Source: Candidatus Iainarchaeum sp. (lineage in GTDB: Archaea; B1Sed10-29; WALL01). From it: a stretch of DNA of 64,000 nt. Location of the stretch: contig JAGMCR010000011.1 in the NCBI GenBank assembly GCA_023129115.1, positions 1 through 64,000 on the forward strand. Direction: 5' to 3'. Each line of letters opens with the position of its first letter. Position 1 is the first letter of the stretch. The notes beneath the pieces were generated by a model. It worked only from the letters and a program-made list of their open reading frames with translations, had not been told where the DNA came from and made no database searches. Positions 6,729-58,973 of this stretch are shown piece after piece. Made by a program: the position numbers and the translations under genes.

Positions 6729-7223
6729 ATGCCCTCCACGAGACACAGGCCGCGGCCGTCTTCGTCGGCCGCCGGCGCCGCACAGCCCAGAATGTCCGCG
6801 AGCCTCGCCTCTCTCGACGCCAAGCTGAAATTGATTGCGCAGCGGCTCAAGATAATGGAGAACAACGAGCAGGTAATCGGCCGCACCCTCGTCTCGCACA
6901 ACAAGAAAATGAAGGAGCTCGAGGCCCTGGCCGCCGCCGGCGGGGGCAAGGGGCTCGACCTGGCGCGGCTCAAGGACACCATCCGCGACGAATTGAAGGC
7001 CGAGCTAATGGGTGGCGGGCAAATCGCGCCGCCGCTGGAGCACGGCGCGCCGACGAAGCGCACTTCTTCTGAAATAATTAACCTGCGCAAGTCTGTCGAA
7101 GAGCTCCGCCAGGAAGTCAACGAATTAAAGTACGTCGTGGACTCAATCAACCCGCTGGAGTACATCACGCTCGACCAGCTGAACGACGTCGTGACCAGAA
7201 AAATCGAGAAGGCCAGGAAATAG
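6729..7223 (+). CDS. Coiled-coil protein, 164 aa
   Basis: The first 20 residues are basic and Pro/Ser/Ala-rich. Heptad-like coiled coil covers about 23-65 (LDAKLKLIAQRLKIMENNEQ) and a second coil about 115-140 (IINLRKSVEELRQEVNELK). The protein ends in a compact YITLDQLNDVVTRKIEKARK segment. There is no membrane segment. I do not recognise the family. It is divergent from polB and convergent with the HerA-like gene, from which it is separated by one base. The TATA-like TTTATTAA about 20-26 bp upstream supports the chosen start, although Met22 is also possible. A second coiled-coil gene lies on the other side of the HerA-like gene, so the three may form one complex. Confidence 0.65.
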   Translation: MPSTRHRPRPSSSAAGAAQPRMSASLASLDAKLKLIAQRLKIMENNEQVIGRTLVSHNKKMKELEALAAAGGGKGLDLARLKDTIRDELKAELMGGGQIAPPLEHGAPTKRTSSEIINLRKSVEELRQEVNELKYVVDSINPLEYITLDQLNDVVTRKIEKARK

Positions 7224-7224
7224 G

Positions 7225-8694
7225 CTACATAGCGCTGAGCGTCGGCCTTAAATTAATGCGGTAGACGGGCTTGCCCTGCTCGTTCACGCTGGCATTGTTG
7301 CCCTCAATCACCTGGATGTCCATCGTCGCGTTTTGGAGTATTTCGGTGTCGAGCCCGGCGTGGCTCTTGGCCACTGCGCACACGCCGATGCCAGTCTCTC
7401 CCGCGAGCTTGAGCATCGTGTTTGCCTCGCGGTCCAGCTTTGTCTCGGGCGCCCCGATTATGCTGGGGTCGCTGACTACGACGAGGACCTTCATCTGGCT
7501 GCTGGCGAACTCTTTCTTGTAGCTCTCGTAGAGCGTCTTGAGCGTGCAGTAGACCAGGCCCTTGCGGATGGATGGCTTGATGCCCTTGGTGTCCACCACG
7601 GCGATGCGCCCCATCTTCTTGAGCCACGGCGCCACGATTTCCTTGGGCTCGAGCGTGCCGTCGAACAGCCCGGGGTAGGCGAGGCCGAGGAGGCGGCAAA
7701 TGCGGATGGCCCTCGCCGCGAAATACTTCTTTTCCTCGGTCTTGATTCCCTGCAGGTGCTCTATCAGGCCCTTGAGGTTGAACGGCTTCTTCTCGAGCGC
7801 CTCGCCCACCAGCTCCATTTCAGTGCCGTGGCCCGCGCCGGTAATGTCCCCGAACAAGTCCTTGTCAAGGAGCTTGAGGTCTATGAAGAAGTCCGCGCCT
7901 GGCTTGAACCTCCTGAGGGGCATGCCCATGGGGTCCACTGCCAGGTCATACTTGCCGTAGTCGTCCGTGTTCGGGCTCGGCGTGTCCGCCTTCTCGAAGC
8001 CCTCGAACACCACGCCGGACACGCCGTTGATGACGCAGCCCTCCATCAGCACGTGCAGCGCGAGCCGGGTGTCCTCGCCGGACAGTACGGTGAGCAGGAA
8101 CGACTTCACGTCTTCCTCTGCCTTTTCTCCGGACAGGTTGTTGCCGAGGTGCAGCCGGCCCGTCAATTGCGTGGACTCGAGGCCGGGGCCTTCCTTCCTC
8201 ACCACGAGGGACGGCATGGCAAGCGGCTCGCCGAACAATTCGTTCGTGTCCTTGAGCTGCGCGTACTTGGCCTCGACGAGCTTGATGGCGAAGTCGCCGC
8301 TCTTCTGCCGCACTTCTACGGCGCGCTTCTCGAGCTCGTTCGCGTGCCTGTCCGCCACGCCAATCAATTCCCGCGGAGAGAACTTGACGTACTCGGGCAT
8401 CGTGGCGATGGCGAGGAACGAGCCCTTGTACGTGGGCGTGTTCTTCTGGATTACGACTGTGTTCTGGCCCGCGGCCTCGAAGAACCCGCCTGGGTTCCCT
8501 TCCACGAGGAAGAGCTTGGCCATGAAGAACACCATGCCCTTGACCAATTCGCCACGGCGGTCGTATATCATTACGAGTAGCTCCTTGTCGGGGTTCTCGT
8601 GGTACGAGATTTCCCGGTCACTCCATACCCCTGAAAGAATGTGCTTCCAGGGCCCGTGGGGGAGGTCAAGCGCCTTCAGTCCAAGCACCCGCAT
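7225..8694 (-). CDS. HerA/VirB4-like ATPase-fold protein lacking a clear P-loop
   Basis: A 489-aa soluble protein. The C-terminal 120 residues look like the end of a HerA/FtsK-type motor: a strand plus DPS (MKVLVVVSDPSIIGAPETKL), then ETGIGVCAVAKSHAGLDTEI, which matches the 'old ways of finding Q/S loops' region, and a final YRINLRPTLS. At the position where Walker A (GxxGxGKS/T) should be, near residues 185-225, I see only LHLGNNLSGEKAEEDVKS, which does not fit. Either it is a catalytically dead relative or the resemblance is only structural. Family assignment is therefore tentative. It sits alone on the minus strand between two coiled-coil genes and is divergent from the one at 8757. Confidence 0.4.
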   Translation of the reverse strand: MRVLGLKALDLPHGPWKHILSGVWSDREISYHENPDKELLVMIYDRRGELVKGMVFFMAKLFLVEGNPGGFFEAAGQNTVVIQKNTPTYKGSFLAIATMPEYVKFSPRELIGVADRHANELEKRAVEVRQKSGDFAIKLVEAKYAQLKDTNELFGEPLAMPSLVVRKEGPGLESTQLTGRLHLGNNLSGEKAEEDVKSFLLTVLSGEDTRLALHVLMEGCVINGVSGVVFEGFEKADTPSPNTDDYGKYDLAVDPMGMPLRRFKPGADFFIDLKLLDKDLFGDITGAGHGTEMELVGEALEKKPFNLKGLIEHLQGIKTEEKKYFAARAIRICRLLGLAYPGLFDGTLEPKEIVAPWLKKMGRIAVVDTKGIKPSIRKGLVYCTLKTLYESYKKEFASSQMKVLVVVSDPSIIGAPETKLDREANTMLKLAGETGIGVCAVAKSHAGLDTEILQNATMDIQVIEGNNASVNEQGKPVYRINLRPTLSAM

Positions 8695-8756: not shown

Positions 8757-9176
8757 ATGGACGAGGCTACGCTGCAGCGCATTGTCGGGATTGTCAAGAC
8801 CATGCAGTCCAGCGGCATGGGCGAGGCCGAGATAAGGGAGAACCTGCGGCAGATGGGCGTTGCCGACGAGGAGCTGGCGGGAATTCTTTCGCAGGCCGGC
8901 TTCTCCGCACCGGCGCCCGCGCCCCCCGAGCCAGAAGTCGCGCCCCCGGTGGCAGAGGAGCACATGGAGCGCCTGCACGCGAACGTGAGCGAGCTCCACG
9001 CCAAGCACGACGACATGAAGGAATCCCTCTCGGGGCTCGGCGAAATCATGCGCGAAATCCAGGACATCAAGGCAGAGCTCGCGGACATAAGGCCACAGCT
9101 CGGCGCCCTGAAAAGAATCAACGAGAACCTCATCGAAATCAACAAGAAAATGCTGGCGCGGCTGGCGACGAAGTAG
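8757..9176 (+). CDS. UBA-like N-terminus plus coiled-coil protein, 139 aa
   Basis: Residues 1-45 (ATLQRIVGIVKTMQSSGMGE, then IRENLRQMGVADEELAGIL) form a three-helix pattern like small UBA or helix-turn-helix modules. An Ala/Pro/Glu linker follows (48-65). A long coiled coil fills 68-135 (MKESLSGLGEIMREIQDIKA and onward). No membrane segment. Family not recognised. The last 15 codons are repeated at 11605-11640 on the far side of the HEPN/MNT island, which suggests something inserted at the 3' end of this gene. The gene is divergent from the HerA-like gene and may work with it. Confidence 0.65.
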   Translation: MDEATLQRIVGIVKTMQSSGMGEAEIRENLRQMGVADEELAGILSQAGFSAPAPAPPEPEVAPPVAEEHMERLHANVSELHAKHDDMKESLSGLGEIMREIQDIKAELADIRPQLGALKRINENLIEINKKMLARLATK

Positions 9177-9202: not shown

Positions 9203-9577
9203 TCAATCCAGGTGCTTGTCGACTATTGTTTTCATCCTCTCGCAGTGCTTTCCCATGGAAGCGACTTCTCCCTTGCTGAGCTTGTCAACAACGCCGTATT
9301 CTGCCTCGCTTTTCTTGCCCAGCAGATAAGAAAAGTGTGCCACGTACTTTTTGTAGTCTTGTCCCAGGAACTTTGCGAGGCTTTGCACCTCTCTTTTCAG
9401 TACTTGCTTGTGGTCTGCTGCTTTTGGGATGTGGTGGAGGTATTTCTGGCACAGGAAGTCATTGAATTTTATGGCCGCGAGGATGAATAGTGTGGCACCG
9501 CTGTCAACCCGGTTTTCGCCGTAAAGCCTTTTCGCGTCGCTGTAGTACTCCAGCCCCTTGTCATAATTTTCGGTGCG
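9203..9577 (-). pseudogene. HEPN-domain protein, 5' end removed by the TnpB element
   Basis: The reading frame is open from the transposon edge near 9577 to the stop at 9203 and encodes about 125 helical residues: YDKGLEYYSDAKRLYGENRV, SGATLFILAAIKFNDFLCQK, then KKSEAEYGV and a C-terminal helix. This is the pattern of the HEPN (SAV_6107-like) proteins that pair with MNT nucleotidyltransferases. No ATG, GTG or TTG is available at the expected N-terminus. The frame runs into a stop at 9593 inside the element. The only internal start (GTG at 9388) would give 61 residues lacking half the bundle. The MNT partner is intact on the same strand beyond the transposon. The canonical RX4-6H RNase motif is not seen. 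Confidence 0.7.
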
Positions 9578-9681
9578 AGGAAACCACTCAATTCATGGGG
9601 TGGGGGAATCGCACCTCCATCCTTTCTCGGCAACCCATAGCCGAAAACCACCTAAATACTTCTTGCTTGATATGTTCCAGA

Positions 9682-10881
9682 ATGCCTGCTATTAAATGCT
9701 TGAGGTTGAATCTGCTCAAGCCTTCAAGAGAGAAGCAAAGAATGTTGAACGGGCTTGGTAGTGAATATGCCCGGGTTTTTACTGAATTAAGAGCAATATA
9801 CAGCTTTGCTCACTTCACTTCTGCTATTGAATTGCACGAGTGGACTTATCGCGCTGTCCGCAGGGACTCCTTTTTGCCTTGCCAGCTCGTGCAGGAAGCC
9901 ACGCGCTTGGTCAAGGCAACCATCAAGCAAAACAATCCCACTCCCCACCCGAGGTTCAACACGCGGGTGATGTCGTTCAAGACCACCAAGCGAGGAAACC
10001 CAGTGCTTTCCTTGAGTTTCAAGCCACGCAAGCGTGTCCTCATTCCAATCGCTCAAGACGGCGCTTGGAAGCGATTCAACTCTTTTGTTGCTAATGGCTG
10101 GGCTTGTTCCAGCGTTGTTTACCACAACGGTGTTATTTGGGCGACCATCAAGAAAGACTTTGAGCCTGCCAAGCCAGCCACTCACCACATTATTGGTGTT
10201 GATGTTGGATGCAGGTGCTTGGCGGCAGTCACTGCCTACTATTCCTTTAACCACAAAATCAGGAAACAGCTCTATTTCGGCAGAGATGTTGCCATTCGAC
10301 AGGAAGGGTTTTCCGTACGGCGTGCGAGCCTCCAGTCCTTGGCGGATAAGGGAAGCCGAAGAGCAGCCAACTCTCTCGAAAGAACGAAGCGAAAGCAAAG
10401 CAACTTTGTGAGGAACAGGAGCTATGAAGTCGCTTGGCAAATCGTTGGGCTCGCCAAGAAGCATCGGGCCACTATTGCCATTGAAGACCTCAACAAGCTC
10501 AAAGAAAACGTTGTTGTCAAAGGAGCGAAGCAACTGAATAAAACCACTCAACGGCTTCCTTATCGCAAGCTTCGCTTCGCTCTTGAGAGCATTTGCTTGG
10601 TTGAGGGAGTGCCCCTTGTTGTAGTTAACCCCCACAACACTAGCAGAACTTGTTACGCCTGTGGGACAATTGATAAAAGAAATCGCATTAATGGAGGCAA
10701 GCTCTTCAGGTGCGTTGGCTGCGGCTTCGTTGCCAACGCTGACAGAGTTGGCTCTGTTAACATAGCTGGCAGAGCGGCCGAGAAGCAGGTGTTGCTTCAA
10801 GACCAGTCTTCTGCTGGTCAGGTGCCTGTAAACGCACCTTTGCGTTCCGATGAAAGTCGTGGTTTGGCATTGTATGCCTAA
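9682..10881 (+). CDS. tnpB: TnpB RNA-guided endonuclease of an IS605-family element
   Basis: A 399-aa TnpB, ancestor-type relative of Cas12, expected to cut DNA at sites matched by an RNA from the element's right end and next to a short target motif. The N-terminal REC/wedge region (1-160) precedes a RuvC-like nuclease with all three acidic residues: D in IIGVDVGCR, E in IAIEDLNKL and D in VANADRVGSVNIAGR. The zinc finger CYACG...FRCVGCG lies between the last two. Start: ATG at 9682, with a TATA-like CCTAAATAC about 27 bp upstream. A longer frame to 9490 would run outside the transposon. The frame is uninterrupted, so it is probably functional. tnpA is absent. Confidence 0.94.
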   Translation: MPAIKCLRLNLLKPSREKQRMLNGLGSEYARVFTELRAIYSFAHFTSAIELHEWTYRAVRRDSFLPCQLVQEATRLVKATIKQNNPTPHPRFNTRVMSFKTTKRGNPVLSLSFKPRKRVLIPIAQDGAWKRFNSFVANGWACSSVVYHNGVIWATIKKDFEPAKPATHHIIGVDVGCRCLAAVTAYYSFNHKIRKQLYFGRDVAIRQEGFSVRRASLQSLADKGSRRAANSLERTKRKQSNFVRNRSYEVAWQIVGLAKKHRATIAIEDLNKLKENVVVKGAKQLNKTTQRLPYRKLRFALESICLVEGVPLVVVNPHNTSRTCYACGTIDKRNRINGGKLFRCVGCGFVANADRVGSVNIAGRAAEKQVLLQDQSSAGQVPVNAPLRSDESRGLALYA

Positions 10882-11668: not shown

Positions 11669-13021
11669 ATGCACGCACACGTCAAGGCCAAGGTGGCCAA
11701 GCACCGGAACCTGCTCGAGAACAGGGCGAAAGAGTTCAAAGCCAAGTACCAGCCCCGGCTCGAAGAGGCAAAGAAAAAGTCCCAGGAATACCGGGGGGTT
11801 ATGGACACTATGGATGGGGGGGCTGCCGTTTCCGACATCATGAAGCGCAGCGACATAAAAACAAAGCCGGAGGCCCAACGTGAGATTGTCCTCGCCCGCT
11901 TCGACAACAAGAGAATGGCTGCGCGCCTGTCTCGTGCCATGGAACGGGTGGACGGCAAAGTCAATTCCGCAAAGGAAATGGACGACGCACTCAACAACAT
12001 TTCCCGCCTTGACGCAGACGCCAGGCAGCGTGCGTTGGGAAATCTCCAGTCATATTTCCCTGAAGAAGACTTCAGCGAAGTGCAGCAGCAGCACAAAACC
12101 CTCTTGGAAGAGGAGCGTGAGCAAGAGCGCGAGCGGTGGTTCCCCAAATACGAAAAGGAATTCGACCCGGAGTCAATCAAGCACTTCACCGACAAGCGGG
12201 CAGTAATCGATGTGCTGGAGCACTTGCTGGAGGACACAACCCACAATGCCTTTCACGGCACTTCTTCGAGCGCACTGCCCGGCATAAAGAAAAAAAAGGG
12301 GCTGGTGCCGGCTGGCGAGCTCATGAAAGAGACGATGCCGCTCTCGGGCGAGCTGGAGTCTGGCATAATAGACGAGAAGGGTCAGAAGGGGATAAATCTG
12401 GACGCGATATCTTTTGCCCAGAAATATCGGGACGCGGCGTCGTATGCAGACGCCACTAATACTATCGGCCGCAAGCACTGGACGCGTGCTGGAGCCGTCA
12501 AAGATATTGAGGCCATTGAGAACATACAGGACCTGCAGTTCGCGAGAATGCTTGGGGGAAACTACAGCGACAAGATTGGAGAGCGCAAAGAAGTTCTTGA
12601 GAAGTACGGTGAAGACAGCCGCGAGGCAAGCCTTTATGCCAGAACCGGTGGCAGCACGGTAAAGCGCTACAATATAGAAAAGGAACGGCTCAGCCAATGG
12701 CCCACGCTGGAAGAAGAGGACAAACCAATCGTCGAGGGTGGATTCGCGGTCATAGTGCAGCCGCACGGAGAAGGGTTGGCCCATGAGGAGTTCCGCAGGC
12801 CGTCTGCCATATCTGAAAAGCTTTACCCGGAGGTCCCACTGGAGAACGCGGCGTTTTTTGTCCCCAGCGAGAATGTTGAAGAAGTAAGCGAATATCTCGG
12901 CAGCCACAAAAAAGTATTTTCACTAAACGCACTCCACGAAACAATGAAGCACGATGAGCACATCCTCAATAACCGCTCACGAATGGAGTTCATAAAGAAA
13001 AAGCTTGAGGAAAGCAGCTAA
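11669..13021 (+). CDS. Putative ADP-ribosyltransferase-like protein
   Basis: A 450-aa soluble protein. Residues 1-190 are helical and highly charged (coiled-coil-like). From about 193 the sequence FHGTSSSALPGIKKKKGLVP fits the first strand and loop of the diverse ADP-ribosyltransferase/Tpt1 fold (HGT...I...GL.P). Further marks are DAISFAQKYRDAASYAD (about 250-266), the usual 'A..YA' second segment, and VPLENAAFFVPSENVEEV near the C-terminus, where such proteins often carry a final strand and the catalytic Glu. The acidic catalytic residue cannot be pinned down, so activity is unknown. It starts just after the right repeat of the HEPN/MNT island and is convergent with the Cys-rich surface protein with no gap. 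Confidence 0.45.
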   Translation: MHAHVKAKVAKHRNLLENRAKEFKAKYQPRLEEAKKKSQEYRGVMDTMDGGAAVSDIMKRSDIKTKPEAQREIVLARFDNKRMAARLSRAMERVDGKVNSAKEMDDALNNISRLDADARQRALGNLQSYFPEEDFSEVQQQHKTLLEEEREQERERWFPKYEKEFDPESIKHFTDKRAVIDVLEHLLEDTTHNAFHGTSSSALPGIKKKKGLVPAGELMKETMPLSGELESGIIDEKGQKGINLDAISFAQKYRDAASYADATNTIGRKHWTRAGAVKDIEAIENIQDLQFARMLGGNYSDKIGERKEVLEKYGEDSREASLYARTGGSTVKRYNIEKERLSQWPTLEEEDKPIVEGGFAVIVQPHGEGLAHEEFRRPSAISEKLYPEVPLENAAFFVPSENVEEVSEYLGSHKKVFSLNALHETMKHDEHILNNRSRMEFIKKKLEESS

Positions 13022-13630
13022 CTATTTCTTCCTCTCGCTCCAGATGTAGAGCGTGTACACAAGAAGCACAGCCACTGCAAGAACAACAATCGCGCTGCTG
13101 ACGTCCGCGAACGGCACGAGCGCCGGCGCTTCCTGGCCAGCAACCAGTATGGAGTAGTCGCCGTCGTAGTACTCAATTGTGCCGTTGACCACGCGCTTCT
13201 GGCCCTCCATGGGGCACGAGTACTCGCCGTAGAACTCTGTCTCCTCGATTGTCTCGCAGCCCGTGAACTGGTCCATGAACGCGAGGACCGTGATTTCCTC
13301 GCCGGCCGAGACTTTTTCAATGGCGCACTGGTACTCGTAGTCAATCTCGTCAAGAATGATGTCGGTGTCGAACGGTATGTACATGCTGCAGGCCTCGTAC
13401 TCGAGCCCGGTGCTCTCGGCGTGCGCAAAGCACCCTATCTCCTCGAGGGAGCCGAACTCGTTCTGCACAGAATAGCACGTCACGTCGCTCGTGTAAGTTA
13501 TTTCCGCCTCTATCTCAGTGGCCTGCGGGCACACCAAATGGTCGCTGTACGTTTCGCACCCGGTCTCTGCGTCGACCTCAACCGCAAGAGCTGCACACAG
13601 CAAAAGCAGCACAAGCAAGACTCGCTTCAT
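13022..13630 (-). CDS. Cys-rich secreted protein with C-terminal membrane anchor
   Basis: A 202-aa surface protein. A signal peptide (MKRVLLVLLLLCAALAVEVDA) is followed by an ectodomain with eight Cys residues (TGCETYSD, LVCPQ, VTCYSV, IGCFAH, EACSMY, YQCAIE, TGCETIE, YSCPME), likely four disulfides. The C-terminal VPFADVSSAIVVLAVAV...WSERKK is a hydrophobic stretch with a basic end. Such a tail could be a plain anchor or a cleavable archaeosortase signal, since an archaeosortase-like gene is present at 52.7 kb. One N-glycosylation sequon (NGT) is present. It is transcribed towards the ART-like gene and upstream of no other gene on its strand for 70 bp. Confidence 0.7.
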   Translation of the reverse strand: MKRVLLVLLLLCAALAVEVDAETGCETYSDHLVCPQATEIEAEITYTSDVTCYSVQNEFGSLEEIGCFAHAESTGLEYEACSMYIPFDTDIILDEIDYEYQCAIEKVSAGEEITVLAFMDQFTGCETIEETEFYGEYSCPMEGQKRVVNGTIEYYDGDYSILVAGQEAPALVPFADVSSAIVVLAVAVLLVYTLYIWSERKK

Positions 13631-13701
13631 TGGATACGCTTACCCCCCACTTCCTAATAAACTTATCACCCCGGGCCCCACGGGAAGTGCAGGCGCTTGC
13701 T

Positions 13702-14136
13702 TTACCCGCGGAAAAAGTTGCCGATGCCTATGGGGAAGCCGATGAACACGTTTTCCAGCGCCCCCATGGGCCCCTGCCTGCCGTAGTTCTGGAACGGGAG
13801 CATTCCCCTCATCACGCCGGCGACGTGGGGGTTTTGCACCCCCCTCGTGGCGATGTTCATGAAGTCGGGCTGCCCCCCGATGCTCATGGGCGACGGGCCG
13901 CTCATCATGGCCTGCCAGACGTTGTCCTCCTGCTTTTCCCACATGTCGTCCGGCGCCTCGACGAGCTTGTGCCTGGGCCGCGGCCTGGCCTGCGCCACGG
14001 GCGCCGGCGCCCGACTCTTAAGGGTGTCGAGCGTCAGCTGCAGGGCAATCGCTATGAACCCAAAGATGACGAGAAGCTCTGACCGTACCACTGTCCCAAG
14101 CAGTATGAGCACGATGGCGGCCAGGATAGCTATCAT
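13702..14136 (-). CDS. Small membrane protein 8 of operon, 144 aa
   Basis: The last gene of an eight-gene operon of tiny membrane proteins. Two membrane segments fill residues 2-38. A Pro/Arg-rich cytoplasmic linker follows (APAPVAQARPRPRHK), then about 80 residues rich in Met, Pro and Gly (MMSGPSPMSIGGQPDFMNIA) that end in a hydrophobic VFIGFPIGIGNFF. It shares the layout (two helices, Pro-rich linker, tail) of the three genes upstream but lacks their xRxxPxW motif. It begins six bases after the upstream stop. No known family. Confidence 0.65.
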   Translation of the reverse strand: MIAILAAIVLILLGTVVRSELLVIFGFIAIALQLTLDTLKSRAPAPVAQARPRPRHKLVEAPDDMWEKQEDNVWQAMMSGPSPMSIGGQPDFMNIATRGVQNPHVAGVMRGMLPFQNYGRQGPMGALENVFIGFPIGIGNFFRG

Positions 14137-14142
14137 CGCGCA

Positions 14143-14511
14143 TCACTCGTAGCTGCTGCCCCCAAACACCCGGTGGCCGAGGCGGGCGGCCCGGCCGGCG
14201 CCCTTGCCCATGGCCTTTTCGACCCAGGTGTCGCCGCCCCAGTTGGGCCTGACGCGGATGTTCATGAACGAGGGTATCCTGAACGGCGGGCCGCGCGTGG
14301 TCTCTATTATTATGGGCTCGAGCGTCTCGGCGCCGTGGACCCTGACACCAGCCGTGGACACACCCTTGGCCACGATGCGCTTGGGCGCCATCAATACAGA
14401 GGAAATCACGAGCAGTATGAATATGCCTATGGCGAGGCCGGGGTATCCGGCGATGTACACCGCCACGCAGACGGCGCCCATCATCATCAGCTGCTCTGTG
14501 TCAAGGTTCAT
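14143..14511 (-). CDS. Small two-helix membrane protein, paralogue 1, 122 aa
   Basis: Two membrane helices near residues 8-40, a short basic stretch, then a soluble tail with the family motif: EPIIIETTRGPPFRIPSFMN followed by IRVRPNWGG and WVEKAMG. The same order of elements (PxII, GPP or GEAP, P, a basic-hydrophobic strand, PxW, W/F-E, G) is seen in the next two genes upstream. The tail is predicted to face the cytoplasm by the positive-inside pattern. It starts five bases after the preceding stop. Function unknown. Confidence 0.65.
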   Translation of the reverse strand: MNLDTEQLMMMGAVCVAVYIAGYPGLAIGIFILLVISSVLMAPKRIVAKGVSTAGVRVHGAETLEPIIIETTRGPPFRIPSFMNIRVRPNWGGDTWVEKAMGKGAGRAARLGHRVFGGSSYE

Positions 14512-14516
14512 TCAGT

Positions 14517-14903
14517 TCAGTCCTTGCTTCTCCTGAGTGCACGCCCCATCATTACACTGCGGAACATGCGGTGCATCAGGCCAACCCCACCGCTCGCGTC
14601 CTCGAAGAAGTTGTTCGCGTTCCAGTTGGGCTGGATTTTCAGCCTGAAGTCAGGCGGGTAGAGGTAAGGCGCTTCGCCCGTGTCCTGGACAATCACCGGG
14701 GTCAGGATTTCTTCCTCTTTTTGTGGGGGCGCGGCCTGTGCCACTGGCTGCGGCGTGTGGATTGAGACCGTGGACAGGATTATGAACACCGCACCGATGC
14801 CGACGAGTATCGCGAGCCAGGTGAGGTTGAGGTACATGGCGAGGATTAGCACGAAAGCCAGGAGCCCGACCGGCCGCTGTATGTTGTCGTTCACGCTCGT
14901 CAT
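14517..14903 (-). CDS. Small two-helix membrane protein, paralogue 2, 128 aa
   Basis: Starts at ATG 14903, which has a strong Shine-Dalgarno GGAGGT seven bases upstream. The in-frame TTG at 14918 overlaps that Shine-Dalgarno and is not used. Membrane helices lie near residues 11-45, then a Pro/Gln-rich linker (HTPQPVAQAAPPQKEEE), then the family motif TPVIVQDTGEAPYLYPPDF, LKIQPNW and FFEDASGG, and a basic end. The start is one base from the upstream stop. Paralogous to the genes at 14143-14511 and 14905-15258. Confidence 0.65.
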   Translation of the reverse strand: MTSVNDNIQRPVGLLAFVLILAMYLNLTWLAILVGIGAVFIILSTVSIHTPQPVAQAAPPQKEEEILTPVIVQDTGEAPYLYPPDFRLKIQPNWNANNFFEDASGGVGLMHRMFRSVMMGRALRRSKD

Positions 14904-14904
14904 G

Positions 14905-15258
14905 TCAGTGACCTCCAACCTTGCCGCGGCCCTTTGGCTTGAAGGCCTGGGCCAGGAGCCCTGCGCCGACGCCTGCCGCGCCGAACGCGTTCTCCCACCA
15001 CTGGTAAGTGTTCCACCGCGGGGCGACCCTTATCCGCATCCTGGAGGGGTATATGCTTGGGGGGCCCGAGTACCTGCGCTTGACTATGATGGGCCTGATT
15101 TTCGGCATGCCGCTGGCGACCGGCATGGGCGGCTCGTTCCTGACGCCCCAGACGTAGGCGGCGATGAGCAGCCCGCTGATTACCGAGAGCCACGCCATGT
15201 TATAGGCGAGCCCAACCCACACCACGGTGGCGAGCAGCAGGATGGTCAGTATGTCCAT
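14905..15258 (-). CDS. Small two-helix membrane protein, paralogue 3, 117 aa
   Basis: Two membrane helices near residues 2-42. The tail holds RPIIVKRRYSGPPSIYPSRM, IRVAPRW and WWENAFG, matching the two downstream paralogues, and ends in a Gly/Lys-rich basic segment. A GGGGGAAG Shine-Dalgarno lies just before ATG 15258, and the start is immediately after the preceding stop (TAGATG). The Shine-Dalgarno of the next gene is embedded in the last codons, so expression is coupled. No function is known for this motif to me. Confidence 0.65.
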   Translation of the reverse strand: MDILTILLLATVVWVGLAYNMAWLSVISGLLIAAYVWGVRNEPPMPVASGMPKIRPIIVKRRYSGPPSIYPSRMRIRVAPRWNTYQWWENAFGAAGVGAGLLAQAFKPKGRGKVGGH

Positions 15259-15546
15259 CTATCTTCCCCCAAGGAGCATTCCGGGCGAGTAGTAGCCAGC
15301 CCCGCCTTTTTCTTTGGTGAACATGAATATCCCAAGCACGACCACGGAGGCGATGAGCATTATGACTTCCTGCTGCGCCTGGAACATGTACACCAGGAGC
15401 AGGCCGATTGCCGCCACCGCCAGCAGGCCCTTGCTGCGGACTGCCACGACGAACAGGAGCATCAGGAGGGCGGCGGCCCACGTGACGCCCTGGTTAATCG
15501 TCACCATTATCATGATGAGGAAAATGACAACAGTGAGTGTGTCCAT
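15259..15546 (-). CDS. Small membrane protein, three to four helices, 95 aa
   Basis: Almost entirely hydrophobic: helices near 4-18, 21-36, 40-56 and 60-77, then a short Gly-rich tail. There is no soluble domain and no recognisable catalytic residue. A GAGG Shine-Dalgarno precedes ATG 15546 and overlaps the stop region of the upstream gene. Size and topology recall VirB2/VirB3- or CedA1-like subunits of conjugation and DNA-import systems, but no motif supports that. Confidence 0.6.
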   Translation of the reverse strand: MDTLTVVIFLIMIMVTINQGVTWAAALLMLLFVVAVRSKGLLAVAAIGLLLVYMFQAQQEVIMLIASVVVLGIFMFTKEKGGAGYYSPGMLLGGR

Positions 15547-15556
15547 TTACTCTTCC

Positions 15557-15799
15557 TCACTCTGGGTGTGGCCCGGGGATGAACGTGTTCTCGAACGTCT
15601 CGAAGAACGCGTAGCCGAAGAACAGCGCTATGACGATTACTAGCACGCCCATGTGCTGGTAGATCGTGAGGTACACGATGATTATGGCCAGCAGTATGCC
15701 TACCCTGCGCGAGCCGGTCATGCCAATGGCCCACTGCGTCAGGTAGACGAATACGAACAGTATCGCCGCCAGCTGCAAATCAGTCCACAGGTCCCCCAT
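15557..15799 (-). CDS. Small membrane protein, 80 aa
   Basis: Three hydrophobic helices (about 8-26, 31-46 and 49-67) with an acidic-aromatic C-terminus (FFETFENTFIPG). The start is ATG 15799, with GGTGG four bases upstream. The in-frame TTG at 15814 overlaps nothing useful. An AT-rich stretch with TAATATAAAC about 40 bp upstream may be an internal promoter, since the gap to the previous gene (38 bp) is the widest in the operon. Confidence 0.6.
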   Translation of the reverse strand: MGDLWTDLQLAAILFVFVYLTQWAIGMTGSRRVGILLAIIIVYLTIYQHMGVLVIVIALFFGYAFFETFENTFIPGPHPE

Positions 15800-15837
15800 A
15801 TTTCCACCTTGCAATTATTTTAACTTTCTTGTTTATA

Positions 15838-16182
15838 TTACTGTGCCAGCTTGAACAGGGTCAGCCCCCAGAACAGCATGCCGAAGAGGCCGAACCCCAT
15901 GAATGTCCATATTATGTAAAGCCCCAGGGTGAACTGGGGCAGGATGAACACGAATATGTATATCAATACCCCTGCAATCGCGTAGCTCAGCATTCCGGGG
16001 CCCACGACGTTCCTGACCCACGAGAAAACCATTATGGCTGCAGCCACCTGGAACAATAGCATCAGTTCCGACGAGAGCGAGACCGCGACTATCGGGAGGA
16101 ACAGTATCAGCCCAAGTATTATCAGAATCGCGGGAAGCATGAGCCCCGCGGGAATGAGCCCGATGAATCCCCTGTCCCCCAT
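15838..16182 (-). CDS. Membrane protein, four helices, 114 aa
   Basis: Hydrophobic helices near 12-33, 38-55, 62-85 and 90-108, with short loops and no soluble domain. ATG 16182 overlaps the upstream stop as TGATG and has GAGGTG in front, so the two are translationally coupled. The in-frame GTG one codon earlier is also possible. Family not recognised. Confidence 0.6.
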   Translation of the reverse strand: MGDRGFIGLIPAGLMLPAILIILGLILFLPIVAVSLSSELMLLFQVAAAIMVFSWVRNVVGPGMLSYAIAGVLIYIFVFILPQFTLGLYIIWTFMGFGLFGMLFWGLTLFKLAQ

Positions 16183-16556
16183 CACACCTCACCTGTCTGC
16201 ATCCGCGCGAGGACTCCCCTCTGGTCCCCCGCCCTTGCCTCTGGGCCAACCCCATAGTGCCCTCCGCCGAACGCGAGGTCTGTGATTGCCCCGCCGATGC
16301 CCATTATAATCAGCAGATAAACAATCGTGAGGGGCCCGAAGACGTAGAAGTACTGGAACAATGCCAGGTACCCGATGAACAGCATCACTATGGTTGCCAC
16401 CAATCCGCCGCCGAGGTGCCCGCGCACCCACCCGATTATGAAGAGCAGCATCACGATTTTAAGGCCAAGAATAACGAGCTCGCAGTAGGGAATGAAGGCG
16501 CACACGCCGCCCATGGTGCCCATGCCGCTGCTCAACACGGACTGGAGGAAGCCCAT
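16182..16556 (-). CDS. Membrane protein, first gene of small-membrane-protein operon, 124 aa
   Basis: Begins with a short amphipathic segment (MGFLQSVLSSGMGTMGGVCA), then three to four helices between 20 and 95 (including IVMLLFIIGWVRGHLGGGLV and PLTIVYLLIIMGIGGAI). The last 35 residues are Gly- and Arg-rich. A signature of two Cys (C19, C25) flanks the first helix. It has its own TATA box 24 bp upstream and opens the eight-gene operon running to 13702. No family recognised. Confidence 0.65.
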   Translation of the reverse strand: MGFLQSVLSSGMGTMGGVCAFIPYCELVILGLKIVMLLFIIGWVRGHLGGGLVATIVMLFIGYLALFQYFYVFGPLTIVYLLIIMGIGGAITDLAFGGGHYGVGPEARAGDQRGVLARMQTGEV

Positions 16557-16623: not shown

Positions 16624-16980
16624 ATGGCAAAGCCCAGGAAGAGAATCTCCAAGATTGCTGGCGGGTCCGGCGCTGTCCAGGCGCAGTCGATTCAGAGGAC
16701 CCTGACCTGGACTAACCCATTGAAGTTCCTGCAGAACATCCGCTACCAGAGCTTTTTGGGTGACGACAAGAAAAAGGCGCTGGAGGGCCCGCACCCGCAC
16801 GCGCCGTTCGGCGAAAAGGTGCGCCACCACCTGGACCGCGTGCAGAGGAAGACGGGCAAGCGCTCGCTCTCCCACGTGACCCCAAAGACGCTCAAGGACA
16901 ATGTCTCACCCCACCTGGACAAAGTAGAGGAAGAGCACGGCCGCCGCTCGCTCTGGGCCCACCTTCTCGAGAAGGACTAG
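16624..16980 (+). CDS. Basic protein with duplicated HLDxV motif, 118 aa
   Basis: A Lys/Arg/His-rich soluble protein. Its C-terminal half contains two copies of one unit: VRHHLDRVQRKTGKRSLSHV (about 71-90) and VSPHLDKVEEEHGRRSLWAH (about 98-117), each with HLD-x-V-x5-G-[KR]-R-S-L. The N-terminal part has MAKPRKRISKIAGGSG and a TNPLKFLQNIRYQSF segment. No family is recognised. Leaderless, from its own TATA box, divergent from the membrane-protein operon and overlapping the stub gene by four bases at the 3' end. Confidence 0.6.
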   Translation: MAKPRKRISKIAGGSGAVQAQSIQRTLTWTNPLKFLQNIRYQSFLGDDKKKALEGPHPHAPFGEKVRHHLDRVQRKTGKRSLSHVTPKTLKDNVSPHLDKVEEEHGRRSLWAHLLEKD

Positions 16981-17363
16981 CAGTCCAGCGGCTTTTCTAT
17001 GGCATAGTTGTCAATCATCACCAAATCCACGGATTTGCCCTCGCACCCGTTTTTCGTGATTTTGACGTTTAGCTGAGCTCCGAGCGGCAAGCTGAAGCTC
17101 GCTGTGCCGTCTTCCGCCATGCTGGTGAGCCGCTGCTCGCCGTAGACGACGGTCACGCGCGCCCCGGGTGTTGTCGTGATGTCCAGCCTATACTTTACGC
17201 CGGGAAAAAGCAGGAAAGCCAGCCCAAACAGGATTATGAGCCCAATTGCCGTCAAAACAGCCCAGCTGGGGAGGCCCAGGCCCTCAATCGGGTCCGTAAG
17301 CACGTAAAGAGGTATCCCCCTGGCCTCAAGCCCGTCCACGAAGTCGTTCCATCGAGAAGCCAT
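16977..17363 (-). CDS. Stub protein with the giant-protein membrane anchor, 128 aa
   Basis: Residues 1-65 carry the same anchor as the four giant proteins upstream: W-x-DFVDGLEARGIPLYVLTDP-I-E, then GLPSW and one membrane helix (about 36-56). One Ig-like beta unit follows (ITTTPGARVTVVYG...DGTASFSLP) and the protein ends after KPLDC, where the giants continue for more than 2000 residues. The start is ATG 17363, with AGGTG six bases upstream. That Shine-Dalgarno overlaps the stop codon of the lectin-like frame, so the stub is coupled to the giant gene. It could be a regulator, a competitor for the anchor's partner, or a gene remnant. Confidence 0.65.
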   Translation of the reverse strand: MASRWNDFVDGLEARGIPLYVLTDPIEGLGLPSWAVLTAIGLIILFGLAFLLFPGVKYRLDITTTPGARVTVVYGEQRLTSMAEDGTASFSLPLGAQLNVKITKNGCEGKSVDLVMIDNYAIEKPLDC

Positions 17364-17372
17364 TGCCGGCAC

Positions 17373-17933
17373 CTATACCTTATTGGTGTAACTAATGTAG
17401 TCAATTTCTAGGTTCGTGCTGAGGTCCATGTATTCGGCGAACCCCACAGGCATGCTGCCCTTGGCCTCAGTCGTTTCAGCAACTTTCTTGAAGGCCTTGC
17501 CCTCCTTGACATAATACTTTGTCGTGCCACTGGGGTCCCATACAATCTTGTAGGTGTGCCACGCATTTGTGTTCGCGCTGTCCCCCAAGGTAAATTTTTT
17601 GTAACCTGAAGAGCTGCCATACGTCGCGTCGCCCTTTATGTACGTGGCGGCACTGAGGTAATTGGTGAGGCTGCTAGTGCCGTAGAACACGTGGAACTTC
17701 CCGCCGCTGTAGTCGTGGAACCCAAACCACGGGTCCCACTCGTCCACAGTAGTCCACTTGGCCCGGACTTCCACCGTGCCCTGCGTGTACCACTCACTCG
17801 TCTTGAGGCCGCAGTGCACGTGGTCCCCTGTCGCGGCCTCGCACTTGGCTATGCCGTTCGCAGCGACGAACGGGTGCGCCCCCGCAGTCACCCACCTGCC
17901 GCTGTCGGAATCAAAATTGTCAGTCCACGCTAT
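17373..17933 (-). CDS. ConA-like lectin/glucanase domain in -1 frame of the giant gene
   Basis: About 186 residues open in the -1 frame after the stop of the 2807-aa giant protein. DNFDSDSGRW starts the jelly roll, followed by GTVEVRAKW, WDPWFGFHDYSGG, WHTYKIVWD and a final LEIDYISYT, the strand order of LamG/GH16-like concanavalin folds. No GH16 catalytic ExDxxE is seen, so binding rather than hydrolysis is likely. There is no proper start: the first in-frame GTG is at 17891, inside the domain. It is most simply the C-terminal domain of the giant protein, reached by frameshifting at 17933-17939 or separated by a one-base sequence error. Confidence 0.65.
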   Translation of the reverse strand: MAWTDNFDSDSGRWVTAGAHPFVAANGIAKCEAATGDHVHCGLKTSEWYTQGTVEVRAKWTTVDEWDPWFGFHDYSGGKFHVFYGTSSLTNYLSAATYIKGDATYGSSSGYKKFTLGDSANTNAWHTYKIVWDPSGTTKYYVKEGKAFKKVAETTEAKGSMPVGFAEYMDLSTNLEIDYISYTNKV

Positions 17934-26444: not shown

Positions 26445-29400
26445 TTATACATTCCAGCAGCAATACCTGCTTGGCCACGAGCATTCGCCAACTCCGCTAA
26501 AGCAATAGTCATAACTACTATCGCTGGAGCCCTTACACGTGAACCCGTATGATGCAGGGTTTTCTGGTAGGTGGCGAGCAATGTAATCTATGGCATATGC
26601 CTCGCAGGAAATCTTAACACACTCATTTTCATCACCGGCAGTGCCACAATACGGGTAGTCGTCTGGGCAGTCACTGTCCTCGTCACAGAGGCATTCGCCG
26701 TAGCTAGTGCCAACCCCTACAGTGAAATCGCAGAAGCCGGACGCACACGCATCATTAGACCAGCACCATTTCCCCAACCCCAGCAAACCCTCCTTTGTGG
26801 CACTGACTGACTTCGCTTCTGCATCGGCAAGGCTCCCCTTGTTGCCGTACTTGTCCATGGCCAGCACCTTGTAGGAGCAGCCATCATCGCAGTCCGGATA
26901 TTTTTCACTGTAGGACAGTATTGAAGTCTTACCTGCTTCCGTGTAGCCCCCGTCCCCAATCTTCTCATAGATTATGTACTTTATTGGCGGGTGCGCGTCA
27001 GTCGCGGCCTTCCACGTCAGGTCTATCCTGCTTACTGTTCCAAACGAGTAGCTTACCTCTAACTTCTCTATTCCATTGAACGACGGCGGCGTGGTGTCCG
27101 CATCTACTTCGGTATAGCTAATGTCCGCGGCTATCGCAATGCTCATGTAGTCAAGGCACGCAGCCGGCGCGCAGGCACGGATGTACCTGAACGACTGGCT
27201 TCCCGTCGAAACGTCTTCCTTGAACCGGCCCCAGAAAAGTGTTGGCTGCGGCGGGTCCATTGCGGATCCCTTCGTGGAGACAGTCGATATGCTTGTGACA
27301 AAATTCCAATCGCAGTCTGTGTACCCCTCCATTGGATAGCTGCATTTCGCGCCGCCGTTGCCACACGTCAATTTGAGGCCCAGGCCGCACGCACAGTGTT
27401 CCCATTGGCCATTATCCTTACGCGCGTCGTCCTTGCCCATGTCCTGCCACACTTCATCAGCACCCATCTCCGTTGCTGTGCACCCACTTGCCACGTCTAT
27501 CCGGAGGGTGTCAGTATCGCCTGGGTCACTGCCCGTCGAGTACCTGACCTTCAGCGGGCTCGACAAAGTCACTGTCGACCCCACGTCGAAGTACCTGCAC
27601 GCCGCATAGCACCCCATGCCGGACGCCTCCTTCATGACGTATATCTCAACGGTCTTGGTTACCGAGGCGTCCTGGTCATCAGTGACCGTGATGCTAAGCG
27701 TCTTCTTGCCAGTGCTGGTGTAACTGTGCGATGCTTCTTTTGTCTTGGCCGTGCCGGTGTCACCAAAGTCCCACGCATACGTCAGACTGCTGTCATCGTC
27801 AGTTGCGTTGACATCATACGTCCCCGGTTCATCCAGCAGTATGACCTCTGGATAAATAATGTCATTTATCACGGGCGGAATGTTCTCGACCGTGAGGGCC
27901 CCAATCGCCTCGTACCACTCGCCCCAGTCCCCCTCGCTGTCCTGGAGCCTGCAATGCAGGTCATAGTCGCCCACGCCCATGTCCTTGGGCACAGTGAGGC
28001 TAGCCACGTAGCCGCCCTTGTCCGCCTCGTACTTGGCTGCCCCCAGCCACGTCTTCTCCGGCGTCGTGCCCGTTGGCCTCTTGTACTTTATTTCCGCGGC
28101 CTTCAGCGAGGCACCCGTGAGCAGGTCTTCTTTGTCTTCTCCCACGCACACTACCTCGGTCGCCTCGGTGCGGTAGACGGGGTTCGGGTCTGCGGCCAGC
28201 GACGTGACGTACGGCAAGTTGTTCTTCACTTTTATCGGCAGGCTTGCCTCAGTGGTGCTCACCATAAAGTCCTGGTCCTCTATCCTGCACGAAAGCATGT
28301 AGTTGCCCTTTGCTGCAGTCAGCTCGGGCGTGAAGCTGAATGGCTCGCCCGCCATCGTCGCCATCATCCCGTCCACAAGCGCCAGCCGCAGTGGCAGCGG
28401 CGTTGGGTGGCCGTCGTGCGGGGCAAGCATGCTCAAATAGCTGGTCTCGCTCTCCGGGGTGTACGAAATCCACGCGTTCAAGGTATTGTCCTCAGTGTCC
28501 TTGCCCTCGCACACGAGGCCTTCAAGCGTGTCGCCCCTGAAGACCTCGCCCTCCGGTGCGGTGAAGCTAAGGGCCTTCGGGTTGATGAGGTCGTCATAGT
28601 CCGGGTCAGTGTTCGGCAGCGCCTCCACTGCCCCGCACTCCTTGCCGGTGACTATGCCCCTCTGGTACTTGGGCCACGTCTCTCCAGAGAACCCGCTGCC
28701 GAGGTGCAGGTTGTTCTCGTGCCTCCGCTCCAGCGGGTAGTCGGTCGCCACGTGCCCCGTGTCCTCGAACCACATCAGCTCGCGCATGCCGGTGCTGTAC
28801 TTTTGCTTGAACGCGCAGTCGCCGGAGCCGCCCGCGCAGTCTGTGGGCGAGCCGCCAATGCCCAGCCCGCGCTTCACGACGTCGCCCCTGTCACTAAGCG
28901 AGACCGAGAGGCTGTCCCCGCTGATTTCGCCCTGCAGGAGCGAGAAGTCAACGTAGTAGCACGCTTGGTCGTCGTCCGCGCTTTTCGCGCTGGCGTTGTA
29001 CGCGTTGTTGTAGCAGTAGGCGCCAAGCCTCTCGACCATCGACGTCGCCTCTGCAACTCCCGGTGGAAGCAAATAGACCGGCACCGGCTTGCCAGCGGAG
29101 CCGCCCAGCACAGTGCCGACATTGTCGTACGGCACCATGCCCTTGAGGTTGGCCTCCATCTTGCCCACGGTCTCGGTCCCGGTGTCGCCAGTCTTGTGGA
29201 TTGTGGTCTCGCACTTCACGACCACGTTGTCGCCGTCGGCCTGGCCGTCCGCCGTGACGCTGATTGCATTGGCAATGTCCACTGCCCTGGCCAGCGTGGA
29301 CTCGAACGTGTACTCGCCAGGCTGGCTCGCCTCCAGCGTGTCGCCATAGCCGTGCGCCATCGGCGTCTCGGCGCGCACGCCGCCAACGTCCTTGAACAGC

Positions 29401-32400
29401 GCCATCGTGCACGTCGTCCGCGCGGCGTCAACTTCCTGGTCGTCGAACCAGCTGTCCGTGAAAGTGATGTTGATTCGCGGCGTCGCTGGCGTGCACGCGG
29501 TCACGTCATACTTCGCCGGCGTAATCGTCACCACCGGTGGCGCCTCGTCGTACACGAAGTCGAACGGCGCAGTCAGCTGCTGCGGCACCTCGCCCTCGGC
29601 CGCGAACTCGACGCACGCCACGTCTATGATGTTGTGCCCGTGGCTGAGGGTGACGCCCTGGCAGTTGTATTTCGCCTCGTAGCACCCGTGCCCGTCTGAC
29701 TTGCAGTCGACCTCGAGGCAGTTCCTGCCGCCGATTCCGCAGCCCGTAAGGCCCACGGTCGAGGATGCGTCGATGTATAGGTCTGGCTGCCCGACCTTGG
29801 TGTAGTAGTACACCTCGTCCACCAGCGTGACCGGCGTGTTGACAGTGTCCACGGTTATTATCGGTACGCCCTCGGGGTAGTAGTAGACAGCCCCGCGCGC
29901 CACTCCGTCGTTGCCGTTGAAGTCGAAGCACGTCACGTTGAACCTCAGCAGTGTGTACCTGTCCTTCGGCAGTCCCGTCGGCTCGGGCGAGTTGAACTGC
30001 GTCCTGCTGTCGCAGTCGAAGTTCTCGTTGTCCGTTGTCACGCACTCCCTGGCCGGGAACGTCTTGCTGCCCACGGCGTCCAGCTCGAGCAGGCAGTAGT
30101 CCACGCCGTACCTGTCCTCCGCGACTGCGGTGAAGATGACGCTGTCGTCCTGTATCGCGGTCAATGCGGGAATCGTGACCGACGGCGGCTCTGTGTCCTT
30201 CACGAGGAACGTCGTCGCCCACTTCGCGTACGCAGTGTCCCTGCACGACGCCTTGAACAATACATAGTCCTCCGCGGGCAGCTCCCAGTTCACCACGCTT
30301 GACCCGAGTGCTTCGCGCCTCAGCTGGTTGCCCGCCTTGTCCTCCATCACAAGTATGCAGTCCCGCCCCGACGAAGTCACGTGCACGTCGACGTCAGTGT
30401 CCCGCGTGGTGTGCACGTCGCTGCCGATGGAGTCGTCCACCCGCACCGATACACCCGGCACAACAATCGCCGGCGGGGCCTCGCAGGCCGCAAGGCCGGC
30501 CAGCACCACGCCGCCGCGCGCGTTCTTCAGGATGTAAGTGTTCGCGCCCGTGGCCCAGTGGTGCTCCATGTTCGCAAGGAAGCAGTTCGCGTTGCCGTCA
30601 ACCGTTCCAACAAAGAAGTCCGCGCCATCGCGTATTGGCGCCATCGCGAAGTAGCCGGTGCCGCCGCGCAAGAGCTCTTCCCTCTCCTTGAGCCATTTGT
30701 ACTTGGCAAAGCCCAGGCCCTTAACATCACTCTTCGAGAGCTCGCGGTACTCGACTGTGAACACCGCCTCGTCGTTTGTCCCGAGGCCGTGGCCAAGGAA
30801 CGTGTCCTGCTCCGAGTCTTCTGTCGCAGCCATTGTCTTGGTAAGGTCTTTTGCGAACGGTATTCCGGGGTTGGTGTTCATCGCGCCCGCAAAGTAGTAC
30901 TGGCTCGACGGGCTGCACCACGGCGCGTCTGTCTTCTTGGCAGTGAGCTCCATCCTGCCCATGCTGCCTTTCCTGAACACTGCCTCAATTAGCCCGCACT
31001 TGATGTCGGGCACGATGAGCGCGTTGTCGCTCTCCTCTCCCCTGCCGCCGACCGTGCCGGGGTAGCTGAGCGACATGGTCTTTCCTGTCTCGTCCACGAC
31101 TTTCGCGTTGACAAAGTCGTTGCCGAACGCATACACGTGCCTCTCAGTGTCCTTGTCTGAATCGTGCAGGTTCTCCGCCGCGAGCAGCAGCGCCTTGCTG
31201 AGCTGCTCCGCGTCGCACAGGTAGGCAGTGTCCCCAATGAGCTGGCACGAGCCCCTCTTTATCTCGCCGCTCTCCCTGAACACGACGTAGTCGCCCGCGC
31301 CGGGCCCGCGCGTCAGGTCGCAAGTGACGTCCGCGAAATAAGTCCCGGACTTGGTCATGCCGCCGCCGGACGCAGTAACCTTAATCGTATTATTACTAGT
31401 CTGCTGGTTGCACTCGATGCTCTCGGCGGCAGCAGTGAGGTAGACCTCTGCCCTGCCGTACGCGGGAATCACGTGCCCAGGCACTTCTTCCCACTTGTCG
31501 TTGAGCATCACCGCCTCGACCGAGATGTCGAGGTGCTCCTCCTGCAGGCTTGGCGACAGCACGAGCGACGCGGGCGCGTCGTTGTTGTTTATGACCGTGA
31601 CAATCTTCTTGCTGAGCACCGGGTGCAGGTCGTCCAGCACAAGCGAGGGCTTGCGGTAGTCCTTTTCCTCGGGCTCGAAGAATATGCCCTTGATTGGCGC
31701 GATAGAAAAGAGCTCGACGAACTCGCGGTGCCGCGCCGAGACCGGGATGCTGCTCCTGGTGAGGTCAAGCTCAAGCCCTTCGCTGCTGAAGTATCCGCCG
31801 TCCCTCAGCACGAGGGCCTTCCCCTCCGCATTCACTTCCGCATCCTCCATGAGCGCGCCGTTGCGGAGCGGCCGCACCCGCAGCTCTGCCGAGTCGGGCC
31901 TGAGGTCTCCAGTGTTGCCCATTGTTTCTATTGCGTAGTCGACAAGCCCGTGCGTGATGTACTGCCAGCCCTGGTCGTCCAGGGTTATTGCTATCTGGCC
32001 GGGGGCCTTGCCAGTCCCGGTTATGGGTGCCTTCACAGAGACCCCGCTGCCCACGGCAATCTCCTGCCAGTAGTTGAGCCCGCTTATCCCCGGGGCATTG
32101 ACGCCCATTGTGAACGTCTGGTCGGCCTCGCCCTGGTTCCGGAACTCTATCTCCACGTCAATTTCCCGCGGGCCTTCCTGCGACAGCGAGCCGAGCGTGT
32201 CAAGTGGCAGGAACCTCCCCCAGTTGCAGCCGCCGGGGTATCCCGCTGGCGGGCACACGAGCGCCTTCGGCACGATGGCAGCCTTCACGCCGGGAATCGG
32301 CGTGTCGAACTCTATGTCTTCGGGATTAAGGCCTTGCGACCCGTCGACCGTGAAAGTGAGCGGGCTCTTCCTGTTGTTGAAGAACTCGAGCGTGGCCTCC

Positions 32401-53245: not shown

Positions 53246-53249
53246 TACT

Positions 53250-53260
53250 CTTATATACTC
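53250..53260 (+). promoter_or_regulatory. TATA box of the pilus ATPase operon
   Basis: CTTATATACTC is centred 26 bp before the ATG at 53281, a leaderless arrangement. The divergent archaeosortase-like start at 53245 lies only five bases away. Confidence 0.65.
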
Positions 53261-53280
53261 CCCCCACGTTTTTAAGGAAG

Positions 53281-57748: not shown

Positions 57749-57755
57749 TTGGCTA

Positions 57756-58226: not shown

Positions 58227-58228
58227 CC

Positions 58229-58238
58229 TTTATATACC
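58229..58238 (+). promoter_or_regulatory. TATA box of the pilin gene at 58273
   Basis: TTTATATACC is centred about 39 bp before the ATG, giving a short leader that includes GAGGTAAT. A separate promoter here suggests high expression of this pilin-like gene. Confidence 0.55.
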
Positions 58239-58272
58239 TCGCCTCTGTTATCCAAAAACGAGGTAATGCTTT

Positions 58273-58725: not shown

Positions 58726-58732
58726 ATTAGCA

Positions 58733-58949: not shown

Positions 58950-58973
58950 AACCTGCACGGGATACCTGACCCC

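Follow-up and report, generated by a model that had tools for sequence, protein, structure and literature searches.

Eight small membrane proteins and a HerA-fold protein without a P-loop in a conserved gene neighbourhood with giant archaeal surface proteins

The window analysed here is a 64,000-nucleotide stretch of contig JAGMCR010000011.1 from Candidatus Iainarchaeum sp. It carries an operon of eight small membrane protein genes, O1 to O8, and a conserved partner gene that encodes P489, a protein with a HerA-like fold. An earlier note on this DNA had described eight adjoining or overlapping small genes at 13702-16556, and all of them are found there on the minus strand. The operon and its partner comprise the following genes.

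13702-14136, minus strand: O1, 144 amino acids; membrane helices and a putative cytoplasmic tail (HKLVEAP..W, LPF.NYG); diverged fourth tail paralogue
14143-14511, minus strand: O2, 122 amino acids; membrane hairpin and basic tail with the motif EPIIIETTRGPPFRIP
14517-14903, minus strand: O3, 128 amino acids from ATG (alternative TTG start at 14918); membrane hairpin and tail with the motif LTPVIVQDTGEAPYLYP
14905-15258, minus strand: O4, 117 amino acids; in an AlphaFold2 model, hairpin at residues 3-18 and 22-39, extended tail at 40-84 with the motif RPIIVKRRYSGPPSIYP, helix at 85-105
15259-15546, minus strand: O5, 95 amino acids; three predicted membrane helices, N-terminus related to O4
15557-15799, minus strand: O6, 80 amino acids; two to three membrane helices, MGDLWTDLQLA..TGSRR..YLTIYQH..FFGYAF; set B (see below)
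15838-16185, minus strand: O7, 115 amino acids; about four membrane helices, WVRNVVGPG loop; set B
16182-16556, minus strand: O8, 124 amino acids; about three membrane helices, WVRGHLGGG loop; set B
7225-8694, minus strand: P489, 489 amino acids; predicted HerA/VirB4 fold, no P-loop; conserved partner of the operon

All eight open reading frames (ORFs) of the operon are genuine and coding, are under purifying selection, and form one tight operon with intergenic gaps of -4, 38, 10, 0, 1, 5 and 6 bases. Compared with G001, a genome of the same genus, the products are 51-82% identical in amino acids and the third codon positions diverge most. The nonsynonymous rate (dN) is 0.12-0.43, with a synonymous rate (dS) of 0.85-2.1 for seven of the eight genes; dS of O3 is saturated.

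By profile-profile comparison, set against 60 window-shuffled controls, the operon is made up of two duplicated sets: the hairpin-plus-tail proteins O1-O4, joined by the start of O5 (set A), and the multi-helix proteins O6-O8 (set B). O2, O3 and O4 share a tail (E values of 2e-16, 3e-14 and 6e-15 over 100-118 columns, with no shuffle reaching any of the scores), which bears out the common tail that the earlier note saw in the genes at 14143, 14517 and 14905. Its reading of O1 as a diverged fourth copy holds through O4 (E 4e-7, 0 of 60 shuffles, though the best shuffle lies less than one score unit below) and more weakly through O3 (one of 60 shuffles reaches the score). It does not hold through O2, where 25 of the 60 shuffles score as high. 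The N-terminus of O5 resembles O4 (0 of 60). Within set B no shuffle reached the O8-O7 or O8-O6 score and one reached that of O7-O6. The description of the products as almost only membrane helices was wrong for O1-O4, whose tails are each about 75-100 residues long. O7 homologues often start in a prepilin-like way ([KR]G-F or RA-F, by eye) despite their roughly four membrane helices, and O7 (15838-16185) and its homologues are possible candidates for prepilin peptidase substrates.

The O4 model has a mean predicted local distance difference test score (pLDDT) of 85.7, above 90 in the hairpin. Residues 40-84 are modelled, at moderate confidence, as an extended stretch without secondary structure. 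The most conserved residues of O4 (P56, I57, R61, Y63 and SIYP at 68-71) all fall in this stretch, which suggests that the tail may be a peptide that binds a partner. Net tail charge is positive in 15 of 16 O4 and 13 of 14 O2 sequences, and this charge favours the cytoplasmic side for both tails.

None of the eight products had a convincing match in Pfam, NCBIfam, PHROG, PADLOC or the PDB, and the O4 model found nothing similar in a fold search. Several low-scoring candidates were rejected. The best Pfam scores, SP24 for O5 (E 0.035) and SAYSvFN for O3 (E 0.17), look like chance. Among 39 aligned O2-O4 sequences NfeD_membrane (6e-5) and ASFV_J13L (1e-4) matched one member each, and the NCBIfam model for Na+/H+ antiporter subunit E matched the membrane part of O4 at 9e-4, far under its cut-off. 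Against the PDB, the O6 profile found only the membrane helices of a receptor, at E values of at least 0.15.

P489 of the window likewise matched no Pfam family. DUF87, the HerA central domain, was matched by two of ten P489 members (best E 3e-4), and the P489 profile matched only three chains in the PDB, all HerA (E 3e-4, 0.08 and 0.19). The protein was also modelled with AlphaFold2 (mean pLDDT 82.7, predicted template modelling score 0.63). The top 50 Foldseek rows were all HerA or HerA-containing complexes, with E values down to 1e-12, and comparison with VIA gave DndH-C (7es4; Z 22.5, root-mean-square deviation (rmsd) 2.9, 276 residues), HerA (4d2i; Z 22.5, rmsd 3.5, 269 residues), VirB4 (4ag5 and 4ag6; Z 19.9 and 19.5) and TrwB (Z 17). 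This fold covers only residues of about 174-489. VIA rows for R388 VirB4 do span the whole model but at an rmsd of 22, and they were set aside. The N-terminal 175 residues gave no HAS-barrel match. By eye, the strand-helix order of residues 1-140 (window 8275-8694) is longin-like, and matches to TCA17 were weak (E 0.8).

The Walker A P-loop (GK[ST]) is missing from its aligned place in all 21 P489 homologues, which come from two phyla; two of them carry a GK[ST]-like pattern elsewhere in the chain. In contrast, an ordinary HerA from a third phylum (genome G212) keeps its P-loop. The genome holds no second match to the P489 profile at E 0.1. Judging from sequence and model together, P489 is apparently a HerA-derived pseudo-ATPase, and two phyla apparently use a former HerA-family motor as a structural, non-ATPase part. 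P489, one homologue from the second phylum and the eight operon products matched none of the HerA-based anti-phage families of PADLOC. In genome G008 the P489 gene is split into two ORFs (12403-13759 of its stretch) by a frameshift or an assembly error.

There are several known systems with which this gene set invites comparison. In type IV secretion, VirB3 has two membrane helices and wraps the N-terminal domain of VirB4 (PMC9259494). The operon is similar in that a small two-helix protein with a cytoplasmic part, as modelled for O4 and with the side of the tail taken from its charge, is encoded beside a cytoplasmic protein of HerA/VirB4 fold. It differs in having several tail paralogues rather than one, and a partner without a P-loop. 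Among the 25 families listed for 39 set A sequences, the one match to VirB3, TraL or PrgI was to TraL (E 0.24). No sequence test supports a VirB3 relation, so homology is not claimed. According to one paper, archaea lack homologues of VirB3 and VirB8 (PMC11868833).

The archaeal Ced and Ted systems also combine small membrane proteins with a HerA/VirB4-like protein. CedB and TedB are ATPases, and CedA and TedA have six or seven membrane helices (PMC9905601). P489 lacks a P-loop, in contrast, and the eight products reach at most about four predicted helices by simple hydropathy. No chain of the VirB2-like CedA1 or TedC was among the PDB matches of the O4, O6 and O7/O8 profiles at E 1-10, a search that a distant relation could escape. 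With HerA and DndH, P489 has in common the fold itself, and it differs from them in its missing P-loop and in the lack of a HAS-barrel match at the N-terminus. A likeness of O6-O8 to VirB2 pilins, in the W-[VA]-R/G loop between helices, was considered, but no search supported it.

The earlier note had proposed a conjugation or DNA-import channel as one idea. Set B would then be the pore or pilus, the tails would act as VirB3 and P489 as VirB4, and a separate ATPase would supply the power. The VirB4 and TrwB matches of the P489 model, the VirB3-like layout of hairpin plus tail, and a DNA polymerase gene nearby all fit such a channel. Yet P489 has no P-loop in any homologue, no product has the six to seven helices of CedA, no archaeal conjugation pilin was matched in the PDB, and, beyond the TraL match, neither the 39 set A sequences nor 27 O7/O8 sequences had a VirB3, TrbC or PrgI match listed from Pfam. 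Membership of a known DNA-import system is not supported and we regard a channel as very improbable, while a likeness of layout to VirB3-VirB4 is possible.

The window belongs to the phylum Diapherotrites/Iainarchaeota, of which 19 genomes were sampled. The O6 profile matches 16 of them, including all five that are at least 90% complete; the three negative genomes are 61-85% complete. O7, O6, O5 and O4 keep the same order and strand in all 16. O8 and O3 are present in 15, O2 in 14 and O1, by profile, in 10, and contig ends account for the missing O8, O3 and O2 and for two of the six missing O1. In the more distant of these genomes, gene order is the basis for the labels O1-O4. In one genome (G002) the cluster is split across two contigs. 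Conservation beyond this genome, whose absence the earlier note had named as one refuting outcome, is found in 16 of 19 genomes of the phylum and in a second phylum. The earlier observation was real and its reach understated.

The genes around the operon are also conserved, and in the window they are as follows.

6792-7223, plus strand: COIL, a coiled-coil protein adjoining P489, conserved in both phyla
8757-9176, plus strand: small protein of helices and coiled coil that keeps its place near the operon in both phyla
13022-13630, minus strand: SEC, signal and one C-terminal membrane helix; ninth gene, 71 bases after the operon
16977-17363, minus strand: short protein with a giant-type N-terminal domain and a membrane helix
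17930-26353, minus strand: giant surface protein 1, 2807 amino acids, N-terminal domain WY..L..LD.KGIP....DPIE
26445-35033, minus strand: giant surface protein 2, 2862 amino acids, same N-terminal domain
35045-42445, minus strand: giant surface protein 3, 2466 amino acids, same N-terminal domain
42522-50612, minus strand: giant surface protein 4, 2696 amino acids, same N-terminal domain
53125-62933: type IV pilus-like locus with a T2SSE ATPase (53125-55587), a platform-like protein and prepilin-like small genes; recurs in relatives

Across Iainarchaeota the neighbourhood runs from an archaeosortase-like gene, a long prepilin-like protein and one to four giants with a common N-terminal domain through O8-O1, to a secreted protein, the small helical protein, P489, the coiled-coil protein, DNA polymerase B and an M24 peptidase. 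P489 was found on the fetched stretches of 13 of the 16 operon genomes, and a giant-type ORF likewise on 13 (longer than 1,000 amino acids in 11); where either is missing a contig end is close by. A SEC homologue adjoins the operon in 10 of the 16 and lies elsewhere on the stretch in one more. SEC matched no family.

The pilus-like locus raises another explanation, that O1-O8 are an accessory complex of this machine. It adjoins the operon's neighbourhood within the window, a pilus-type ATPase lies on the same stretch in eight of the 16 Iainarchaeota loci, and the start of O7 often resembles a prepilin. However, O1-O8 themselves match no ATPase, platform or pilin family, and 15 stretches searched from the second phylum contain no profile match to any of the three, while the O genes there stay with the small helical gene and P489 or with giants. 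A role as pilus accessory strikes us as a remote prospect.

The second archaeal phylum was sampled at 116 genomes. Our guess is that it is Micrarchaeota, because a paper groups Iainarchaeota, B1Sed10-29 and Micrarchaeota together (PMC12892359). P489 homologues occur in 11 of the 116, matching more than 300 of 490 profile positions with E values of 9e-24 to 1e-82; ten further matches, to about 100 residues of the HerA core only, were left out of the count. On seven of the 11 P489 stretches there are O-like genes beside P489. O5, the operon member best conserved across the two phyla, was found in six of these seven (E 6e-9 to 6e-11), and the other O families matched more weakly, at 6e-3 to 3e-6. 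By eye, the tail element xP[IV][IV][IV] is kept in G091, G098, G102 and G104, and the G099 tail keeps a later element, IP..M.MKV..NW....W.E.

O5 follows P489 closely in this phylum. A cross-phylum O5 profile, which includes the six second-phylum O5 rows, matched 10 of the 11 P489-positive genomes and none of the 105 others (hypergeometric 1e-13, ignoring kinship). In the eleventh positive genome (G066) the contig start falls inside the O cluster. Four genomes (G091, G098, G102 and G104) lie outside the O5 profile and yet have O5, with P489 on another contig, which makes the co-occurrence a link independent of neighbourhood. Their O genes still adjoin the small helical gene. The O cluster of G102 and G104, though remote from P489, has a giant gene (2,114-2,126 amino acids) two genes away. 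With no known family for O1-O8, an order conserved across one phylum and co-occurrence in a second, the new envelope complex suggested earlier, for which no known complex was recognised, is supported: family and structure searches returned no match to a described system.

The giants follow the same pattern. The profile of their N-terminal domain, which is about 77 residues long, matched all 11 P489-positive second-phylum genomes and none of 11 P489-negative ones picked from the listing of the phylum (chance 1e-6, ignoring kinship). The positive genomes carry three to six copies each, with open frames of up to 5,182 amino acids. These co-occurrences of O5, P489 and the giant domain would also suit an active exporter of the giants. 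Here P489 would be the gate or ring, with a distant ATPase, the membrane potential or the ribosome as energy source, and the archaeosortase-like gene beside the giants fits as well. The conserved core, though, encodes no energy source, and Sec is the usual insertion route for N-terminally anchored membrane proteins. We consider an exporter unlikely.

The genes could also encode a core scaffold of the envelope or of division that has nothing to do with the giants and owes its distribution only to common descent of related lineages. The operon is nearly universal in Iainarchaeota, as its presence in every genome at least 90% complete indicates, it adjoins housekeeping genes (polymerase B and the M24 peptidase), and its presence in the second phylum follows families. 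Against this stand the giants found upstream of the operon in most loci of Iainarchaeota, and next to the O cluster where it has moved in G102 and G104, and such a scaffold seems to us to have a small chance of being right.

We tentatively prefer a reading to which we would give somewhat less than an even chance: O1-O8 and P489 form a membrane complex whose tails dock the pseudo-ATPase, and which serves as the base for anchoring or assembling the giant surface proteins. O1-O8 would be subunits of one hetero-oligomeric complex in the cell membrane that arose from two small proteins by tandem duplication. Set A would supply the membrane hairpin and a cytoplasmic tail with a short conserved docking motif, and set B helical bundles, each of two to four helices. 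With their tails, the set A proteins may keep P489, perhaps as a ring, and the neighbouring coiled-coil proteins below the membrane, as VirB3 does VirB4 in type IV secretion. The complex would then receive the conserved N-terminal domain of the giants, presumed to be cytoplasmic, and anchor or assemble fibres of about 1,000-5,000 residues at the surface. P489 lacks the usual ATP-binding loop, which suggests that the assembly acts as a scaffold and not a pump, and the absence of an ATPase from the shared core favours a scaffold in the same way.

Several observations weigh against this anchoring complex. The contacts between the products are ones that we infer. O3 tails are near neutral in net charge, and the second-phylum tails of G088, G106 and G140 carry, by eye, neither motif element. 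The O1 profile has no match in G011, G013, G015 and G018, though their contigs run past its place. In G091 and G098 the 10 kb or so around the O cluster contain no giant. The P489-positive genomes belong to families f31, f34, f36 and f38 and the negatives tested for giants to f16 and f23-f27, so the pattern may reflect few evolutionary events. Finally, a protein that has lost its P-loop may still bind nucleotides in some way, and the pilus motor gene on the same stretch in half of the Iainarchaeota loci makes a powered role possible.

No account of the way in which ultra-small archaea make and retain giant surface proteins is known to us, and a literature search by term, over titles and the beginnings of abstracts, found no description of this gene set. 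It is tempting to go further and picture an ancient ATP-free machine of two phyla, with a ring of HerA-derived pseudo-ATPase kept under the membrane by tandem-duplicated hairpin-tail proteins as the base for thousand-residue fibres, a bolder proposal that we hold to be doubtful. In that case a VirB3/VirB4-like layout would have been converted from a DNA pump to a structural anchor or assembly hub, possibly the device with which these tiny cells grip partners. O1-O8, P489, the two coiled-coil proteins and the giant N-terminal domain make up a conserved gene set that can be tested.

Other phyla yielded little. The third phylum (that of G022; 145 genomes) has one borderline match to the giant N-terminal domain, at E 3e-4 and with two internal stops. 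O4 had no match in any of these 145 genomes or in six of six from the phylum of G028. P489 matches in the third phylum covered the profile partially and were not counted; three fetched stretches held HerA-type proteins of 680-681 amino acids. Two short partial O6 matches (E 1e-3) among 146 genomes of the phylum of G024 were not counted either. A one-phylum O6 profile missed the second-phylum clusters that were found via P489, so empty results elsewhere are weak evidence of absence.

Some other features of the locus deserve mention. An ORF that by eye resembles a TnpB-type transposon protein (9490-10881) lies, together with other genes, in the interval that separates the small helical gene from the operon, an insert absent from G001. 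A short GH16-like ORF (17373-17891; Pfam Glyco_hydro_16, E 2e-5) separates the giants from the operon. The archaeosortase/exosortase-like gene beside the giants (52739-53209) scores 33 bits with NCBIfam exo_archaeo against a cut-off of 23, and has no evident substrate. The platform-like protein of the pilus locus (55607) has eight helices and no Pfam match. The same contig, past the window (64001-103900), carries a second pilus-type ATPase (74552-76258), more platform-like membrane genes and a surface protein of 3,596 amino acids.

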